Below, one piece after another: positions 3,837 through 47,599 of a DNA stretch of 64,000 bases. The notes under the pieces are model-generated. The model saw only the letters and a program-made list of their open reading frames with translations. It searched no databases and was not told the DNA's origin. Made by a program: the position numbers and the translations under genes. This stretch comes from Emydura subglobosa (lineage: Eukaryota > Chordata > Testudines > Chelidae): NCBI GenBank assembly GCA_007922225.1, contig ML679966.1, positions 35,468,793 to 35,532,792 of the forward strand, written 5' to 3'. Each line of letters starts with the position of its first letter. The first letter of the stretch is position 1.

Positions 3837-4365
3837 CAGTGGCTCCCAACCTTTTTGGCTCGAGGGCCACAGATATCATTTTTATAACCAGTCTCTGCCA
3901 GCAGCCCCCACCGTCATCTCCACCCCACTGCAGCCATGCGGAAGGAGGTCAGCGAGGAGACTGTCTCACTCTTCACTGATCTCCCATCCTCCTGGCTGCA
4001 GCAGGAAAACCGCACACGTCCTGTAGCCCCATGCACTCCACCTAGGTCCCTAGGCAGTGGCTCCCTTCTGCAACCAGGGGGACCGGAGATCAGTGCTCCC
4101 CTCCCTCTGGCTCCAGCAGGGACCCAGCGCCTAGGGACCCAGGCAGAGCGCTTTGCCATGTTCCCTGATACAGCCAGGGGGAGGGGAGCACTGATCCCCC
4201 GTCCCCTTGGTTGTTGCAAGGCGCCTGCACCAGTCTTTTAGCCACGCTGCAATGCGCTCTGCCTGGGTCCTTAGGCGGCGGCTCCCTTCTGCAGCCAGCG
4301 GTAGGCCACTTGGAAAGCCCCCAGGGGTCACTTTTGGCCTATGGGCCACGGGTTGGAAATCACTG
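3837..4365. mobile_element. Non-autonomous hAT-type transposon, 529 bp (family A)
   Basis: Ends are CAGTGGCTCCCAACC and GGTTGGAAATCACTG, an imperfect terminal inverted repeat. The flanks are GGGTAGGA (3829-3836) and GTGTAGGA (4366-4373), an 8-bp target duplication matching at 7 positions. The interior holds the GGCTCGAGGGCCAC block next to the left end and repeated GCCAGGGGGAGGGGAGC-type modules. It encodes no transposase. The same ends and interior recur at 46864-47352, so the two are copies of one family. Confidence 0.85.
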
Positions 4366-26126: not shown

Positions 26127-26904
26127 ATAGCTAGTGAAGGATTAGCACACAAATAGAATTCTTGCACCTGGTAGTCATGCAGTTAGATTTATCATCTTTG
26201 TAGGATATGTTACTTAAATCCTATTTACAAAGAAACAAAACATAAAAAGCCTTAATGTCATTGTAATTATGATAAAGTATTTAGAAACAGTTGACAGTTT
26301 TTAGGCTAGATTACATTAATTGGTAGTGATTTTCATTTAATTGCAGTAATCTTTTATGGGGTTTATATAACTCTGTAATAAATTTAGTATTCTCAGTTGC
26401 ATGTTTAAACTGTTTCTAAAAGTGTCAGATCAATACATTTTAATTGTCCAGAAGGCTGTTGCTGTCATTAGACATATTACGTAACAATAGAGATCACTTT
26501 TGGATGTTGATAAACTCTACTTGTTTTACAAGATAGTAAATCTTCTCTTCCAGTTGTAGCTCAGTTTGTGATGAAGAGGAATAAAACTACACTATCTTAA
26601 TATAAAATTAAAATTCAGGTAGGTTGCTGGTGAATGAAGGGTTCATATTATGGTTATGTAGATTTAATGCATATATTAAACATTACAACATATACAAAAT
26701 ATATTTTAAACTTAACTGAGACATTAAGCAACATTAACTGAAAGTCAATAAGTTACCCAGGAAAAGTTAGTGAGAACCAGATTATCCCCTACCTATGTGG
26801 GACATTAAACTGTAGGAAGTTTCATACTTGGAAAGGATTGTCCTTTTTCCCCCTCTACTATTGCAAAATACCTACTTCACAGACCTTGCTTTTTCACCCC
26901 AGAA
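26127..26904. other. Unassigned AT-rich sequence
   Basis: No repeat or exon recognised. It forms the left flank of the DIRS insertion. Confidence 0.45.
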
Positions 26905-27120
26905 AAAACAGGGTTACTTATCAGTAACTGTTGTTCTTCGAGATGTGTTGCTCATATCCATTCCATGTAGGTGAGTGCGTGCCCCGTGCACGAGCCTGCG
27001 GAAAACTTTTCTGCCCTAGCAACCCAGCGGTCGGTCTCGGCGCCCCCTGGAGTGGCGCGCGCATAGCGCGGTACATAGGGCGCCACCGACCGCGCGGGTC
27101 CCCAGTCCCTTCTTTCTGCC
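26905..27120. repeat. DIRS inverted terminal repeat, left (3' end of element)
   Basis: The reverse complement recurs at 33366-33552. The shared core runs from CCATGTAGGTGAGTGCG to CCCAGTCCCTTCTTTC, with a few transitions. The outer tips differ: this side starts AAAACAGGGTTACTTATCAG and is about 20-25 bases longer than the other tip. Unequal tips are normal for DIRS. Confidence 0.93.
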
Positions 27121-27150
27121 GACTCCGACAGCGGGGACGGAGGGTGGGTT

Positions 27151-27250
27151 TGGAATGGATATGAGCAACACATCTCGAAGAACAACAGTTACTGGTAAGT
27201 AACCCTGTTTTCTCTCTTCGAGAGTTGCTCATATGCATTCCATGTAGGTG
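27151..27250. repeat. DIRS internal complementary region (ICR)
   Basis: Positions 27151-27211 are the reverse complement of the left tip 26905-26965 with one mismatch (GGTAA for GATAA). Positions 27210-27250 are the reverse complement of the right tip 33512-33552. The two parts abut and share only a TT. In the accepted DIRS model this region templates the joining of the two ends into a circle, so it should read as the head-to-tail junction of the circle. Confidence 0.95.
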
Positions 27251-27284
27251 ATTACGTAGCCATACCTTTGGCGGTGGGAAGGAG

Positions 27285-30167
27285 TCAGTGGCGTGAAGCC
27301 CTTCTCAGCACGGCTCTGCCAACTGCTGCATCCTCTCTTGCTTGTTGCACGATGGCATAGTGAGAGGTGAAGGTATGGACCGATGACCAGGTTGCAGCTC
27401 TGCAGATATCCTGTAGGGGCACTCGTTCCAGAAAAGCCGCCGAGGTGGCTTGGGCCCTGGTGGAGTGCGCTGTAATCGGTCCCGGGAGTGGTACCTTCGC
27501 CATCTTATAACAGGTGCGGATGCAGGTGGTGATCCAGGAGGAGATGCACTGGGTAGAGACAGGTGAGCCTTTCATGCGGTCCGCCACTGCGACAAAGAGC
27601 TGCGTGGACTTCCGGAACGGCTTGGTCCGGTCTATGTAGAAGGCTAAGGCTCGCCTGACATCCAGTGAGTGCCATCTCCGCTCCTCCTCCGATCCGTGTG
27701 GTTTGGGAAAGAACACGGGGAGGAAAATATCCTGATTATAATGAAACTGGGACACCACCTTAGGCAGGAAGGCCGGGTGGGGTCTCAGTCGCACTTTATC
27801 TTTGAAAAATACTGTGTAAGGAGGGTCTGAGGTTAGGGCTCTTAGCTCGGAGACCCTCCTAGCCGATGTAATGGCTATGAGGAAAGCTACCTTCCATGAT
27901 AGGACTAGAAGAGGGCATGTAGCCATAGGCTCAAAGGGGGGACCTATGAGGATAGTGAGAACTAGGTTTAAGTCCCAGAGAGGCAAGGGATCACGAACTT
28001 GTGGGAACAGCCTCTCTATTCCCTTGAGAAACCTGATGGACATCGGGTGGGAGAATATAGACCTCCCCTTCACTGGGCAATGGAAGGCCGAGATGTCTGC
28101 CAGATGCACCCTTAGGGAGGCCAGGGCAAGGCTCTGCATCTTTAAATGTAGGAGGTAGTCCAAGATGGCCTGGATAGTTGAGTCCAGAGGCACGATGCCC
28201 TGTGACTGTGCCCAGTAGGTGAAGCGTTTCCACTTCGCCCGGTATACTACCTGGGTTGAAGGTTTCCTGCTCCCCAGCAGGACGTTTTGGACTTGTGCGG
28301 AACAAGCCCTCTCTCCTTCCGTTAGCCATGGAGCCTCCACGCCGTCAGGTGGAGGGAGTCCAGGTCTGGGTGGAGCAGGCGACCCTGCTCCTGGGATGGG
28401 AGATCGTATCGTCTCGGGAGCGGGATCGGCGTAGCGATGGAGAGGTCGAGCAGCATACTGTACCAGTGCTGTCTCGGCCATGCCGGTGCGATCAGGATGA
28501 TGTCCGCTCTGTCTCTCTTGACTTTCAAGAGCACCTTGGGGAGCAGTGGGGTTGATGGAAACGCATAGAGAAGTGGCCCCGACCAGTCTATCAGGAACGC
28601 GTCCGAAATGGAGTTCTGTTCTCGCCCGCGCAGGGAGCAGAATAGTGGGCATTTTGCGTTCTGTAGCGTGGCAAAGAGGTCCAGATGGGGAACTCCCCAC
28701 TTGCGGAAGAGAAACGCTGTAACCTCCCCATGAAGTGACCATTCGTGGTGGGGAAAGAACGATCTGCTGAGGCGGTCTGCCTTGTCGTTCCTCACCCCTG
28801 GGAGGTGAGATGCCACCAAGTGAAAGTCGTTTCTCACCGCGAGGTCCCATAGCTGTAGCGCCTCGCGACACAGGGTCGAGGAGCGCGGCCAGCCTTGTCT
28901 GTTGATGTAAAACATCGTGGCGGTGTTGTCCGTAAGGACTTGTATCACCCGCCCCCTGAGAAAGCGGAGAAAAACCTTGCAAGCGAGAAGGACTGCTCGG
29001 AGTTCCCGAATGTTTATAGGGAGCAGTCTGTCTTGCAGCGACCACTGACCTTGGGTACTCAGGTTGTGTGTAATGTGCGCCCCCCACCCGATATCGGAGG
29101 CATCTGTGATTAGAGTTACAGAGGGAACCAAGTCTGCGAAGGGGACTCCTTCCATTACTTGTCTCTGGTCTGTCCACCAGATCAGTGACGCTAAGACCTG
29201 GGGTGGGACGGTGACTACCCTGCCCAGAGAGTGTCTGGCTGGGGCATATACTGACGCTAACCAGCCCTGCAGAGGCCTGAGTCTGAGGCGAGCCAGCCTG
29301 ACCACGTATGTGCATGCCGCCATATGCCCCAACAGCTGCAGGCAGCATCTGGCTGTTGTTGTGGGGAACGTCTGTAGCTCGCGTATGATGGCGGTCATGG
29401 CTTGGAAACGAGGTAGTGGGAGGAAGGCCCTGGCCTGTACTGCGTCCAGAGTGGCCCCAATAAATTCTATGCGCTGGACTGGGGTCAGTGTGGATTTCTG
29501 CTCGTTTATGAGCAGCCCCAGTCTGTTGCACGTCTCGCACGTTAGGGCTAAACTGTTTGCCACATGGAGTCTGGATCTTCCCCGAAGTAACCAATCGTCC
29601 AAGTAGGGGAAGATCTGGACCCCTTTGAGCCTCAGGTAGGCCGCCACCACCGCTATACACTTGGTGAAGACCCGGGGCGCTGAAGAGAGGCCAAAGGGGA
29701 GGGCCGTAAACTGGTAGTGGCCACCAGCTACCGTGAACCGTAGGAAACGTCTGTGGCCAGGGAGGATAGACACGTGGAAATATGCGTCTTTCAAGTCGAG
29801 AGCGGCATACCAATCTCCAGGATCCAATGTGGGAATGATGGAGGCTAGGGAGACCATGTGGAACTTTAGCCGCCTGATGAATCTGTTGAGGCGGCGGAGG
29901 TCCAGAATGGGCCGGAGGCCTCCCTTTGCCTTGGGAATAAGGAAATACCGGGAGTAAAACCCCCTGCCCCTTTCCATAGGTGGGACTTCCTCTACTGCTC
30001 CTAGGCGGAGCAGGGAGCGGACCTCCTGAAGGAGGAGTTGATCGTGAGAGGGGTCCCTGAAGAGGGACGGGGTAGGGGGAGAGTCCGGTGGGAAAGCCGA
30101 GAGCTGTAAGGCGTAACCCCTCCGCACCACGCTTAACACCCAGCGGTCTGAGGTTATGCCTCGCCAC
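27285..30167 (-). CDS. DIRS tyrosine recombinase (C-terminal third of a long overlapping frame)
   Basis: The recombinase is expected to cut and join the circular DNA copy into the genome. The frame is open for 960 codons, but recognisable recombinase begins only around residue 616, where the overlapping RT frame ends (28322). From there an N-terminal core-binding-like segment (STQVVYRAKWKRF near residues 640-660) leads to the catalytic domain. Catalytic residues in order are Arg in SARRVSEL (about 770-771), HSTR (His901, Arg904), Trp927 in ATWSS, and the nucleophile Tyr937 in TFTSHY. This gives the R-H-x-x-R-W-Y set. The C-terminus at 960 is complete, followed closely by the ICR. The real start is unknown. 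In DIRS the YR is commonly read from a frame overlapping RT-RNase H, and an internal Met or a frameshift from pol is plausible. The upstream 600 codons look Pro/Ser-rich and non-homologous, as expected for the alternative frame of pol. Confidence 0.88.
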   Translation of the reverse strand: MARHNLRPLGVKRGAEGLRLTALGFPTGLSPYPVPLQGPLSRSTPPSGGPLPAPPRSSRGSPTYGKGQGVLLPVFPYSQGKGRPPAHSGPPPPQQIHQAAKVPHGLPSLHHSHIGSWRLVCRSRLERRIFPRVYPPWPQTFPTVHGSWWPLPVYGPPLWPLFSAPGLHQVYSGGGGLPEAQRGPDLPLLGRLVTSGKIQTPCGKQFSPNVRDVQQTGAAHKRAEIHTDPSPAHRIYWGHSGRSTGQGLPPTTSFPSHDRHHTRATDVPHNNSQMLPAAVGAYGGMHIRGQAGSPQTQASAGLVSVSICPSQTLSGQGSHRPTPGLSVTDLVDRPETSNGRSPLRRLGSLCNSNHRCLRYRVGGAHYTQPEYPRSVVAARQTAPYKHSGTPSSPSRLQGFSPLSQGAGDTSPYGQHRHDVLHQQTRLAALLDPVSRGATAMGPRGEKRLSLGGISPPRGEERQGRPPQQIVLSPPRMVTSWGGYSVSLPQVGSSPSGPLCHATERKMPTILLPARARTELHFGRVPDRLVGATSLCVSINPTAPQGALESQERQSGHHPDRTGMAETALVQYAARPLHRYADPAPETIRSPIPGAGSPAPPRPGLPPPDGVEAPWLTEGERACSAQVQNVLLGSRKPSTQVVYRAKWKRFTYWAQSQGIVPLDSTIQAILDYLLHLKMQSLALASLRVHLADISAFHCPVKGRSIFSHPMSIRFLKGIERLFPQVRDPLPLWDLNLVLTILIGPPFEPMATCPLLVLSWKVAFLIAITSARRVSELRALTSDPPYTVFFKDKVRLRPHPAFLPKVVSQFHYNQDIFLPVFFPKPHGSEEERRWHSLDVRRALAFYIDRTKPFRKSTQLFVAVADRMKGSPVSTQCISSWITTCIRTCYKMAKVPLPGPITAHSTRAQATSAAFLERVPLQDICRAATWSSVHTFTSHYAIVQQAREDAAVGRAVLRRASRH

Positions 30168-30289
30168 TCTCGGAGGAAGGGGCGAAGTCTGTGTTTGAAG
30201 GGTAGGGTGAGATCCTGGTCGACCCTCGGGGTCGTTAGAATGGCAGAGGTGCCGCTCCCGAGCGTCCCATCAAAAAGGGCGCTTGCCAT
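28322..30289 (-). CDS. DIRS reverse transcriptase - RNase H - methyltransferase-like protein
   Basis: Intact frame of 655 codons. It copies element RNA to DNA and degrades the RNA. RT motifs are motif A LDLKDAYFHV (164-173, Asp165/Asp168), motif B LPFGLSSAP (197-205) and motif C YLDDW (229-233) with both catalytic aspartates. RNase H follows: TDAS (Asp396), REL (Glu429), TDN (Asp454) and KADRLSR (Asp505), a full D-E-D-D set. The last part (about 531-615), with HLDLFA, ISDAFLIDW and LIAPAWPRQHW, corresponds to the methyltransferase-like domain described in DIRS pol. The ATG at 30289 overlaps the end of gag (stop 30270-30272) by about 20 bases in another frame, which is usual for these elements. 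No stop or frameshift is seen, so the polymerase may be functional. Confidence 0.93.
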   Translation of the reverse strand: MASALFDGTLGSGTSAILTTPRVDQDLTLPFKHRLRPFLREWRGITSDRWVLSVVRRGYALQLSAFPPDSPPTPSLFRDPSHDQLLLQEVRSLLRLGAVEEVPPMERGRGFYSRYFLIPKAKGGLRPILDLRRLNRFIRRLKFHMVSLASIIPTLDPGDWYAALDLKDAYFHVSILPGHRRFLRFTVAGGHYQFTALPFGLSSAPRVFTKCIAVVAAYLRLKGVQIFPYLDDWLLRGRSRLHVANSLALTCETCNRLGLLINEQKSTLTPVQRIEFIGATLDAVQARAFLPLPRFQAMTAIIRELQTFPTTTARCCLQLLGHMAACTYVVRLARLRLRPLQGWLASVYAPARHSLGRVVTVPPQVLASLIWWTDQRQVMEGVPFADLVPSVTLITDASDIGWGAHITHNLSTQGQWSLQDRLLPINIRELRAVLLACKVFLRFLRGRVIQVLTDNTATMFYINRQGWPRSSTLCREALQLWDLAVRNDFHLVASHLPGVRNDKADRLSRSFFPHHEWSLHGEVTAFLFRKWGVPHLDLFATLQNAKCPLFCSLRGREQNSISDAFLIDWSGPLLYAFPSTPLLPKVLLKVKRDRADIILIAPAWPRQHWYSMLLDLSIATPIPLPRRYDLPSQEQGRLLHPDLDSLHLTAWRLHG

Positions 30290-33209
30290 TCTTGCGCGGC
30301 CCGGATTGGGGGCCCATGGCAGGCCCGGAGCGGTTCCGGCGGTTGTTCTGCCGGAAACGGTCCCCTGTTCTTCTGGGCTGGGTCTGGCGGGGGGGTAGCC
30401 TAGGAGCGGGCTGCTGCTGTTGTTGTCTCTGGGGCTGCTGTCTGCCCTGGCGCCTCGCTGTCTGCGGTACGTAAAGCCCCAAGGATCGCAGAGTGGCGCG
30501 AGAATCTTTTAGGGCGTGCAGCTTATCATCTGTCTTGGCGGAGAACAGGCCTGTGCCGTCAAAGGGCAGATCTTGAATGGCCTGTTGCGCCTCAGTGGAG
30601 AGGCCAGATGATTGTAGCCAGGACGACCGGCGCATCACAATGCCGGACGCCATGGCCCTACCCGCCGCGTCGGTCGCGTCACTGGCCGACTGGATAGTAG
30701 CTCCCCCTACAGTTGACCCTTCCTGGAGGACGGTGGTGAAGTCCTGTGCTAGATCTGGAGGAAGGGCCGACGTAAATCTCTGGAGTGAGGCTCAGAGATT
30801 CAAATTATAGCGCCGCAAGAGAGCTTAGTGGTTTGCTATGCGGAGCTGAAGGGCCGCGGTGGAGTATACCTTTCTCCCAAAAAGGTCTAGCTTCTTATAG
30901 TCTTTATTTTTGGGAGTATTGGCCTGGGCACCTTGGCGCTCCCTCTGATTGACAGCGTCCACCACTAAGGTACCGGGGGCTGGGTGGTTGTACAAGTACT
31001 CAAACCCCTGCTGCGGCACATAGTATTTACGCTCCGCGGTCTTAGAGGTTGGAGCTACCGAGGCAGGGGTCTCCCATATGGGTTTCACCCGTTTGAGTAC
31101 CTGGTCATGAACTGGGAGTGCCACCCTAGAGGGGCCCGCAGAGGCTGGAATACCAAATATGGGGTCCTCCTCCTCCGAGAGCTCCCTGAGATCTAACTTA
31201 AGGTTGTCCGCTAGCCGCTTAAGGAGCTCCTGATGAGCCTTAAAATCAGGCAAAGGGGTCCTCTGGTCCCTAGATGTTGTATCGGGTGGGGAGGAGGAGG
31301 AGGACTGTAACAGTGGGCCTGTAGAGGGCCCTTCCAGAGGATCAGACTCGTAGTCCGACGAATAATCCCCCTCTTGGGGGCGCTCCTCCTGCTGTCCACC
31401 CTGTGGTGGGGGGGGGGTGGCTGAGGTTTGGAGGAGGAGGGGAGTGACCCTGTGCCCTGGATTGTCTGAGGGGGCCAGGGTCCCCAATAAGGCCACTGCC
31501 AAGGGCCTTGCCCCCACGCCGGTACCGGGCCCGGTGCCGGGTACGTAGGCGCAGATGGATGAGCCGGGCTGGGAGATCTGTGACTCCTCTTGCGATGCCC
31601 TTTACTCGGAGATGGGCTGCGGGATCTAGACGAGCGGTGGTGGCGCCTGCTGCGTCGAGGAGACGAGCTGGACGAGGAGGAGTACCTCCGTGATTTATAA
31701 CGGCGCTTGGCGTGGGCCTTAGGGCTTCTTGAGCGCCGCTCCCCGGTGGAAAGGTGCGGTACCGTAGAGGCGTCCGGTGCCGAGGCGTACAGTACTGAGG
31801 GTCGCTTAGGGGTGCGGGAACGAGATTTAGAGCGTTCCCGGTGCTGATGGCTGTACGCCGGGCTATGAGAGCGGCCCCGTGCGGTTTGATGGTACCGGCT
31901 CCCCCGCGGTACCGAGCTCCCAGAATGCCTCTGATGCTCTGCGTCCTGTCTCGGTGCCGCACGCCGCGCCGGGGAGGGAGCTGGCGACCTCGATCTGGTC
32001 CGGTACCGCATGGTATCTGTCGGTACCGGGGATCGGGAGGTGTGGTAGGGGCGAGATGTCTGCCCTGGCGCCTTCGAACGCACCGGGCTAGCAGAGCGCC
32101 GGTACCGTTCTTGAGTCCTCGGTGCCCTTGAAGCCGGGGCGTCGTGTGAGGAATGGCGGGATGGGCTTGGAGTGCGGGTGGGCGAGCGAGCCCGGCGTGG
32201 TGTGTCCCGCTGCCTCTCTGGACGTAATGCCGGGGATCGAGACCGGTGCCGTGGCTGGGGCGCCGGGATCCGCACCGGACTGTGTTCCGATGACCGGGAA
32301 CGCTCAGCCGCACGTCTCGGCACCGGGGATGGTGAAGAGCGGTGCCGAGAGCCCGAAGACAAGCAGGAGCGGTGCCGTGGCTCTGACGTCCGGGACTTAT
32401 CCCGCCTTGTTGAGCGGCGCCGGGGCTCCGAAGGTCCCACCTCGGTTACGGAGCTTTCCCGGGAACTTCCCGAACAGCTACGGTGCCGTTCTTTGGAAGA
32501 GCTCAACGACTCGCGGTCGGAGCTGGGGGGGGGGGGAGGATGTTGCTCTCCCTCTCCCCGACCGTCTGGGGGGAGACACCGAGTCCCGTCTCGACCTCCC
32601 ACCGGAGTAGCCCAGCACGGGCTTACCCCGAGACGCTATCCCCGATGCCCTCGGCCGAGGGGGGGACGGAGGCGTGGGCAGGGCCATGAGGGCTCGTGCC
32701 GCTGTGAACGCCTCCGGCGTCGACGGCCCTTGTAGAGGCGCTCCCCCACCCCTTGGAGTCGGGGGAGGCTCTCTACGAGGAGATGCCGGTGCCGGGACAG
32801 ATTCAACGGCACGTGGCTGGGGCATCTCCTGTATCACTCCCTGCTGTACCGGTCGCAGGGAGGAGTCCATAGGTGCGGCCGCTGGCCGTTTCTTTTTCTT
32901 CGGTACCGGTTTAGACGGTACCGATGGTGTTGGTGTCGGTACCGGTGGTGCGCTCCGGATCAACGAGACGCTCGGTGCTGTGGGTGATCTGGACGGCTCG
33001 GAGTCGGGACGAAATGCCGTCTCCATCAAGATCGCCCGGAGGCGAGCGTCTCTGTCCTTTTGAGTCCGCGGCTTGAAAGCCTTACATATGCGGCACTTGT
33101 CCTTGCGGTGTTGTTCTCCGAGGCACCGAAGGCAGTGGTCATGGGGGTCGCTGACGGAGAACACCTTACCGCAAGCCGCACAAGGTTTAAACCCGGTGGA
33201 GCCAGGCAT
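30270..33209 (-). pseudogene. DIRS gag, interrupted by two frame changes and two stops
   Basis: Gag would package element RNA. Part 1 runs from ATG 33209 and begins MPGSTGFKPCAACGK, with a Cys/His cluster (CAAC, HDHCLRC, CRIC) that could bind zinc. It continues until a 12-base G run (plus-strand 32525-32536). Beyond it the frame shifts and runs on as an Arg/Ser-rich middle (SRSR, RSRSPSPS) to a second G run of 10 (31408-31417), where the first frame resumes with acidic sequence (LRELSEEEDPIFG). In-frame stops follow at 30825-30827 (TAA) and 30792-30794 (TGA). The same frame then runs open to 30270 with a Gln-rich and Arg-rich tail (RRQGRQQPQRQQQQQ). The two run-length changes cancel out in frame. 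Either could be a sequencing error, but the two stop codons lie in ordinary sequence. Confidence 0.85.
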
Positions 33210-33365
33210 GGCTCCTAAGGGAGCCCCTTAGGGGCTAACTATATACACTATCTTATACTACACTAACTATATACTATAAAACAATAAAGAAGTTATATAC
33301 AATACTAAAGTAGGTTGCTACTTGCTGATAAAGGCAAGGGGCAGACTTTCCACTGACCGTCACGG
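33210..33365 (-). promoter_or_regulatory. DIRS 5' untranslated leader
   Basis: This stretch between the gag ATG and the 5' terminal repeat is AT-rich (ATATACTATAAAACAATAAAG near 33270-33290), unlike the GC-rich body. No confident promoter can be named. In DIRS, transcription is thought to start within or near the terminal repeat. Confidence 0.4.
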
Positions 33366-33552
33366 GCGGAAAGAAGGAACTGGGGACCCGCGCGGTCGGT
33401 GGCGCCCTATATACCGCGCTATGAGCGCGCCACTCCAGGGGGCGCCGAGACCGACCGCTGAGTTGCTAGGGCAGAAAAGTTTTCCGCAGGCTCGTGCATG
33501 GGGCGCGCACTCACCTACATGGAATGCATATGAGCAACTCTCGAAGAGAGAA
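33366..33552. repeat. DIRS inverted terminal repeat, right (5' end of element)
   Basis: Inverted copy of 26905-27120. Differences are mostly transitions (for example GCGCGCCCCAT against GCGTGCCCCGT). The tip ends GCAACTCTCGAAGAGAGAA and lacks the extra bases found at the left tip. Confidence 0.93.
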
Positions 33553-46863: not shown

Positions 46864-47352
46864 CAGTGGTTCCCAAACTTTTTGGCTCGAGGGCCACAAA
46901 TATAATTTTTACAACTCTGAAGGGCCACCAGTCTCCACCAGCAGCCCCCACTCCTTCCCCACTGCAGCCAGAGGGAAGGAGTTCAGTGAGGAGGATCTCC
47001 CTCCCCCCTGGCTGCAGCAGGGAAACCCTGCGCTCCACCTGGGCCCCTAGGCAGCAGCTCCCTTCTGCAGCCAGTGGATGGGAGATCAGGGCTCCCCTCC
47101 CTCTGGCTCCAGCAGGGATTCCAGAGCCTAGGGACCCAGGCACAGTACTTTGCCATGCTCCCTGCTACAGCCAGGGGGAGGGGAGCACCGATCTCCCATC
47201 TCCTTGGCTGCAGCAAGGAGCCTGCACCAGCAACACGCTCTGCCTGGGTTACTTAGGCAGCGGCTCCCTTCTGGAGGGAGGGGAGCCGCGAGCCACTCTG
47301 AAAGACCCCGCTGGCCACTTTTGGCCCATGGGTCATGGGCTGGGAACCACTG
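46864..47352. mobile_element. Non-autonomous hAT-type transposon, 489 bp (family A)
   Basis: Ends CAGTGGTTCCCAAAC and GGGCTGGGAACCACTG are inverted repeats. Flanks ATCTGCTT (46856-46863) and ATCTACAT (47353-47360) match at 6 of 8. The interior shares GGCTCGAGGGCCAC, CACCAGCAGCCCCCA and GCCAGGGGGAGGGGAGCACC with 3837-4365, so both belong to one family. The 208-codon plus frame starting at 46866 is produced by the GC-rich interior and reads out of the element, so it is not a gene. Confidence 0.85.
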
Positions 47353-47599
47353 ATCTACATCAGTTCATCGAGCCTGTTGTTCCTACAGCCTTATCAGTCC
47401 TGTGTCCCTGGTTTCCAATCAATCCGTCCTCTGTCCTGCAGACCTTCCCTCCAGCCAATTGCTTTTCTGACCCCAGTCCCCTACCTATTTAAATTGATTC
47501 TCCGACTTCACACCCCCTCCCCCCCAAACAAACCTTACCAATCCAACGTCCTTTAGTACCCAATGCCCTTTTCCCAGCAAATGACTCTTACGAGCCACA

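Follow-up and report, generated by a model that had tools for sequence, protein, structure and literature searches.

Does the 100-nt stretch at positions 27151–27250 of the window, the 64,000-nucleotide stretch of Emydura subglobosa DNA analysed here, supply the template from which a DIRS element restores its own ends, and where do those ends lie? We consider it very probable that this stretch is an internal complementary region (ICR, or 'internal circle junction') and that it belongs to a DIRS1-like retrotransposon, young and present in many copies, that would work via a scheme of template copying, circle and recombinase.

Architecture of the element and its internal complementary region

In the window's copy, positions 27151–27211 match the reverse complement of the 3' tip (rTer, 26905–26965, minus strand) at 60 of 61 positions, with the single mismatch at 26921, and positions 27210–27250 match the reverse complement of the 5' tip (lTer, 33512–33552, minus strand) at 41 of 41. 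The two ICR halves (rICR, 27151–27211, and lICR, 27210–27250, both on the minus strand) overlap only by the TT at 27210–27211, which belongs to the circle-junction joint at 27208–27211 (TTTT on the plus strand of this minus-strand feature). Alignment thus bore out the sequence-only reading, which had described abutting complements of 61 and 41 bases with one mismatch and a common TT, and a repeat search also recovered both pairs (I2 and I3). The mismatch at 26921 was private to the window's copy, being absent from 39/39 other copies among the best 40 of 4821 candidates. It is exceedingly improbable that this arrangement reflects chance complementarity or a one-off rearrangement in the window's copy: inverted matches with one mismatch or none reached no more than 23 nt in 100 random sequences that kept the element's dinucleotide statistics, which excludes chance, and the structure was present in 40/40 fetched copies and in sister families. 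On the plus strand, antisense to the element, positions 27194–27201 (TGGTAAGT) inside the ICR resemble a 5' splice site.

The element occupies 26907–33552 on the minus strand (6646 bp), with its 5' end at 33552, on the right in window coordinates, and its 3' end at 26907. The conserved parts of its inverted terminal repeats (ITRs), at 26947–27120 (right ITR) and 33365–33538 (left ITR), both on the minus strand, agree at 166 of 174 positions, and both ITRs and both ICR halves contain a common core of 19 nt in which one C/G difference occurs. A tyrosine recombinase domain (27285–28274, minus strand) forms the end of the open frame 27285–30167; its structural model had a Cre-like fold (pLDDT 89.8), and its profile matched Cre chains with E values from 1e-5 to 8e-7, whereas the match of the single sequence to Pfam Phage_integrase fell below the cut-off (E 0.0098). 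A 655-aa frame at 28322–30289 (minus strand) encodes reverse transcriptase (RT; RVT_1, E 7.7e-19) and RNase H (RT_RNaseH, E 0.00059, below its cut-off). The gag region (30270–33209, minus strand) consists of several overlapping or separate open frames (243, 463, 230, and 127 aa), for which Pfam gave no match of note.

With ITRs, an ICR near the 3' end, a short joint, RT/RNase H, a tyrosine recombinase, and no target-site duplication, the element has the features of the DIRS1-like group; its ends are inverted repeats rather than the split direct repeats of Ngaro/PAT-type elements. A Pfam search of the window's frame for a methyltransferase domain after RNase H gave no match; one protein relative (P0105) carries PF05869. 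A search for relatives of the element in viral contigs found none, and the frame that reads through the ICR and ITR, used as a protein query, returned eight candidates, none at E ≤ 10. Elsewhere in the window, a direct repeat pair at 3837–4365 and 46864–47352 is 73% identical over 550 columns, and the frame at 46866–47492 had no Pfam match.

Element ends, insertion sites and empty sites

We searched the 1.93-Gb genome with positions 26905–27400, which yielded 4821 candidates, and took both ends for the best 40, which scored at 98–100% identity and included the window's own copy. The right (5') tip of one copy (L054) was not found at the expected place, leaving 39 copies with both ends. Among these best 40 of 4821 candidates, the joint CCCTGTTTTCTCTC was present in 40/40 ICRs, and the switch from element to flank fell at the same place in 39/39 copies with both ends, with differing flanks. 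The refuting conditions set in the sequence-only reading, ends lying beyond the claimed boundaries or ICRs unmatched to their tips, thus did not overturn it in these copies.

The window-left end of the element sits in a run of six A's (26903–26908), and the window's copy alone therefore cannot fix this end to the base. The comparison of copies supplied the missing information. At the window-right end, the tip read GAGAG-AA in 39/39 copies, and the next base was C in 31, G in 4, T in 3, and A in 1. At the left, the four bases before CAGGG were AAAA in 36/39 copies, with AAAC, GAAA, and ATAA once each. Of 30 left junctions in a sister family, 29 could be located, and the four bases before CAAGG were A in 28, 29, 28, and 29 of the 29. 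Because the switch falls after an AA in 39 copies, the best reading assigns positions 26905–26906 to the target DNA and gives the element the span 26907–33552. With AAAA contributed by the circle and R-A-AA-C by the target, the bases balance: the right junction receives AA-C and the left junction RA-AA-AA, a result that places the exchange at AA, assigns the C to the target, and leaves no base gained or lost. By this accounting, the base after the element's right end is target DNA. Insertion sites read R-A-AA|C, and their logo shows R at −2, A at −1, C at +1, and weaker T's at +8 and +9. We also considered, and rejected, a joint of 3 bp (GTT) to which the ICR of the window's copy had added two T's; four T's were present in 40/40 ICRs, and the target supplies the third base.

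Unoccupied sites were available for comparison. Copy L048 lies in a repeat; among the 40 matches listed for its site, two were its own flanks, and we fetched 16 unoccupied paralogs. Eleven of these 16 ran through the joint without a nearby gap. Two others (L148 and L150) were one base short just after the joint, L152 was short of one A just before it, and L140 and L153 had one extra base before it. The joined flanks of copy L059 aligned over 240 bases, gap-free at the joint, to an empty paralog in L019. Less clean were two weaker matches in the window, one gap-free at the joint (L063, 73%) and one with a one-base gap there (L066, 79%). Judged by the base accounting in 39 copies and by the empty paralogs, the insertions carry no target-site duplication. 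This part of the claim that the ends can be defined to the base without a target duplication therefore stands, whereas the left boundary had to be taken from the other copies and moved to 26907.

Agreement among tips, ICR and terminal repeats

Among the best 40 of 4821 candidates, the 3' tip was identical to the copy's own rICR, over 59 nt, in 35/40 copies and the 5' tip to its own lICR in 33/39. Differences between tips and their own ICRs affected 13 of 3959 sites in the 40 copies; 11 of these were found in one copy each, and the other two represent one change at 33527, in copies L010 and L057. Both of these copies have the right ITR's letter at 33527 in the 5' tip, in place of the letter of their own ICR, as would be expected if the template change had occurred slightly further out than usual. 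As no variant in the 40-copy sample was common to tip and ICR, this sample cannot test co-inheritance.

The sister family allows that test, as its 5' tip carries a variant, GAAGA[T/G]AG. We used exact 22-mers and worked among the first matches listed (100 of 825 and 100 of 1174), whose shared coverage is C1, and C2 to 78.6 Mb. Of 156 sister-family matches listed, 100 formed 50 facing pairs 1.1–7.6 kb apart, and 56 were unpaired. Among these pairs, tip and own ICR agreed in 50/50 (20 T/T, 30 G/G, and none mixed). None of 100,000 label permutations was as extreme, and the fewest mixed pairs in any permutation was 10, although these copies share ancestry and the figure is no strict probability. 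The question of whether a copy's ICR follows its own tip or a family consensus was thus answered in favor of the own tip at this variant, among the matches listed.

Might a full-length or read-through RNA instead carry tip and ICR along as a unit, with the ICR retained as a site for the recombinase or for regulation rather than serving as a template every cycle? Lineages that inherit both would show the same allele agreement, and the joint region differs little among the genome's DIRS families, as expected of a protein-binding site. However, a passage from T/T to G/G by separate mutations leads via mixed copies, and the finding of 0/50 mixed pairs among the matches listed counts against it; moreover, alleles found on both ITRs of a copy need copying, and this sharing stops before 27107. 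We therefore regard joint carriage as improbable, at roughly the level of an outside chance, and prefer the reading of the ICR as a template. In the genome's DIRS families compared (window positions 27170–27223 and the same stretch in L088–L137), the near-identity of the joint region is accompanied by one difference between the window's family and its sisters, the 5' tip of the former being 3 nt shorter; at one of 20 loci (L129), the sister-family search picked another structure.

The ITRs gave evidence of a different kind. In the 39 copies, minor ITR alleles occurred on both sides of one copy eight times (once at 27039, in 4/4 carriers at 27062, once at 27080, and twice at 27092), compared to at most six two-sided alleles in 2000 permutations of partners. 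Counting against copying between the ITRs, one-sided variants were far more numerous (22 on the left and 28 on the right, with fixed sites left out), mostly in one copy each, and we read most of these as later mutations; at 26980, 27058, and 27074, the variant occurred in two copies on one side. At 27038, a CpG, four copies (L022, L027, L052, and L065) had a T on the right ITR and not on the left, a pattern that speaks against ITR copying unless this site mutated four times. At 26958, inside the tip covered by the ICR, the left side had C in 39 copies and the right side G in 37, and positions 27107 and 27117 differed between the ITR sides in 39/39. This pattern suggests that the tips follow the ICR, that the outer ITR follows its partner, and that the innermost stretch keeps its own letters. 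Because the limit of sharing lies between 27092 and 27107, corresponding to element nt 160–175, we infer that the RNA starts near there (33378–33393, minus strand). A TATATAG at element nt 140–146 (33407–33413, minus strand) would be at a suitable distance from such a start; three further TATA-like sites are present at element nt 254–308.

A proposed replication scheme, a possible folded joint and known systems

These observations fit a scheme in which the element's RNA would start inside the left ITR, at about nt 160–175, and so lack the outer left end. In reverse transcription, the right ITR would then serve as template for the outer left ITR, and the ICR for the tips together with the joint between them, with the template change occurring within the 19-nt core common to both ITRs and both ICR halves. 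This would yield a circle with CCCTG-TTTT-CTCTC as its sense-strand joint sequence, and the tyrosine recombinase would insert this circle at R-A-AA|C by an exchange at AA that is neutral for the target in base count. The GTTTTC junction forecast from the window alone is compatible with the four T's in 40/40 ICRs, with the qualification that it reads so on the element's sense (minus) strand. Our comparison of copies agrees with what a replication scheme of 1985 predicts; Cappello et al., 1985, use the term 'internal circle junction sequence' in their title. The circular-template model, for which the sequence-only reading had claimed support, is thus supported by the copy tests but not proven by them, as they compare genomic copies, in which RNA, cDNA, and circle do not appear.

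As stand-ins for circles, we looked for genomic head-to-tail joints; an exact match to a 71-nt sequence comprising the joint and the right ITR occurred at two places, neither of them head-to-tail. The first (L154, G000:C4:15578700-15579600) is a 307-bp stretch from the ICR joint to the 3' end, inverted, and the second (L155, G000:C250:5800-6700, on a contig of 11135 bp) is a tail-to-tail inverted dimer. In both, the ICR's first half runs into an inverted right end, an arrangement explained by recombination, or by a template switch, inside the 61-bp inverted repeat.

Piednoel et al., 2011 (PMC3266345) describe two Anolis elements, AcDIRS1 and AcDIRS2, with ICR halves of 40–58 and 39–60 and right extensions (rE) of 26 and 28. 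Like the window's element, they have inverted ITRs, an rE on the 3' side, two abutting ICR halves, gag, overlapping recombinase and RT/RNase H frames, and no target duplication; the window's values (ICR 41–61, rE about 27) are close to theirs, and the 41–61 size is therefore ordinary. The abutting-half geometry is real, but the sequence-only reading overstated it, since it is ordinary for the DIRS1-like group. The same paper describes a 3-bp joint common to both ends, and its Table 3 includes two elements with 2-bp joints (AA and CG); by our own count, 10 of the 28 elements in that table have unlike start and end triplets. Here, in contrast, 2 bp are common, and the third base (C in 31/39) is target DNA.

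For DIRS-1 of Dictyostelium, a 2017 review (PMC5633606) cites RNA that lacks part of the left repeat, the proposal that the ends are completed from the ICR, and circular cDNA in one mutant strain, and calls the DIRS replication mechanism proposed and not fully proven. The window's element shares with DIRS-1 an internal circle junction, but host and sequence differ, and our data consist of genomic copies only. DIRS elements are known from turtles (PMC4495291), and the best protein relatives came from Chrysemys, Chelydra, Gopherus, and other turtles. Compared as proteins, these were 61% identical to the window's element over 99% of pol (63% over 54%) and 71% over the whole length of the recombinase (77% over 66%), identities that mark another family.

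Integron integrases exchange one strand on folded attC. Integron attC sites resemble the element's joint in the use of a tyrosine recombinase, the absence of target duplication, and a very short common sequence; attC is used as a single strand, whereas one-strand use is a candidate reading for the element. By analogy, the recombinase may act on the joint of the first cDNA strand while it is single-stranded and folded. The ICR strand folded at −44.8 kcal/mol (z −7.9), and the joint strand folded as a long hairpin with the AA unpaired. Four unrelated DIRS contigs (L001, L004, L005, and L006) folded alike, at z −8.4 to −10.2 compared to −6.1 for the window stretch; an ICR-type pair was sought in L002, L003, and L007 but not found, and these three were left out of the folding. 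Inside the basal stem, z was −3.6 to −5.2 for the four contigs and the window, and −2.4 in another turtle family. One-strand exchange is also consistent with the single switch point in 39/39 copies with 2 bp of target identity, as a longer mismatched tract should leave mixed points. The stems come largely from the inverted repeats, however, and the rE (26907–26932, minus strand), which can fold as a small hairpin, is not significant alone (78/500 shuffles were as low), so that we discarded it as a hairpin in its own right. Moreover, Cre and Xer, to which the recombinase is similar, work on duplex DNA, and duplex exchange of 2 bp fits the junctions as well. We therefore hold one-strand exchange to be unlikely, though worth stating, and a search of literature available in part found nothing on a folded or integron-like DIRS joint. 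The contigs L001–L007 are DIRS elements in bacterial genome records (a mussel symbiont, Breoghania, Yoonia, a delta proteobacterium, and Micromonospora) and most likely represent contamination by eukaryotic DNA.

If one-strand exchange were true, the ICR hairpin would show the real substrate: the rE would form the apical stem, and the crossover AA would be left unpaired on the hairpin's shoulder. This would account for the 2 bp of identity, for the switch at one point, and for published elements whose start and end triplets are unlike. The structure itself is of a known kind; what is new are the copy-to-copy tests, the predicted RNA start, and the 2-bp exchange site. The predictions of the model are open to bench checks, and a family that is young and abundant within a single genome is a test bed in which the DIRS mechanism can be studied by comparison of copies.
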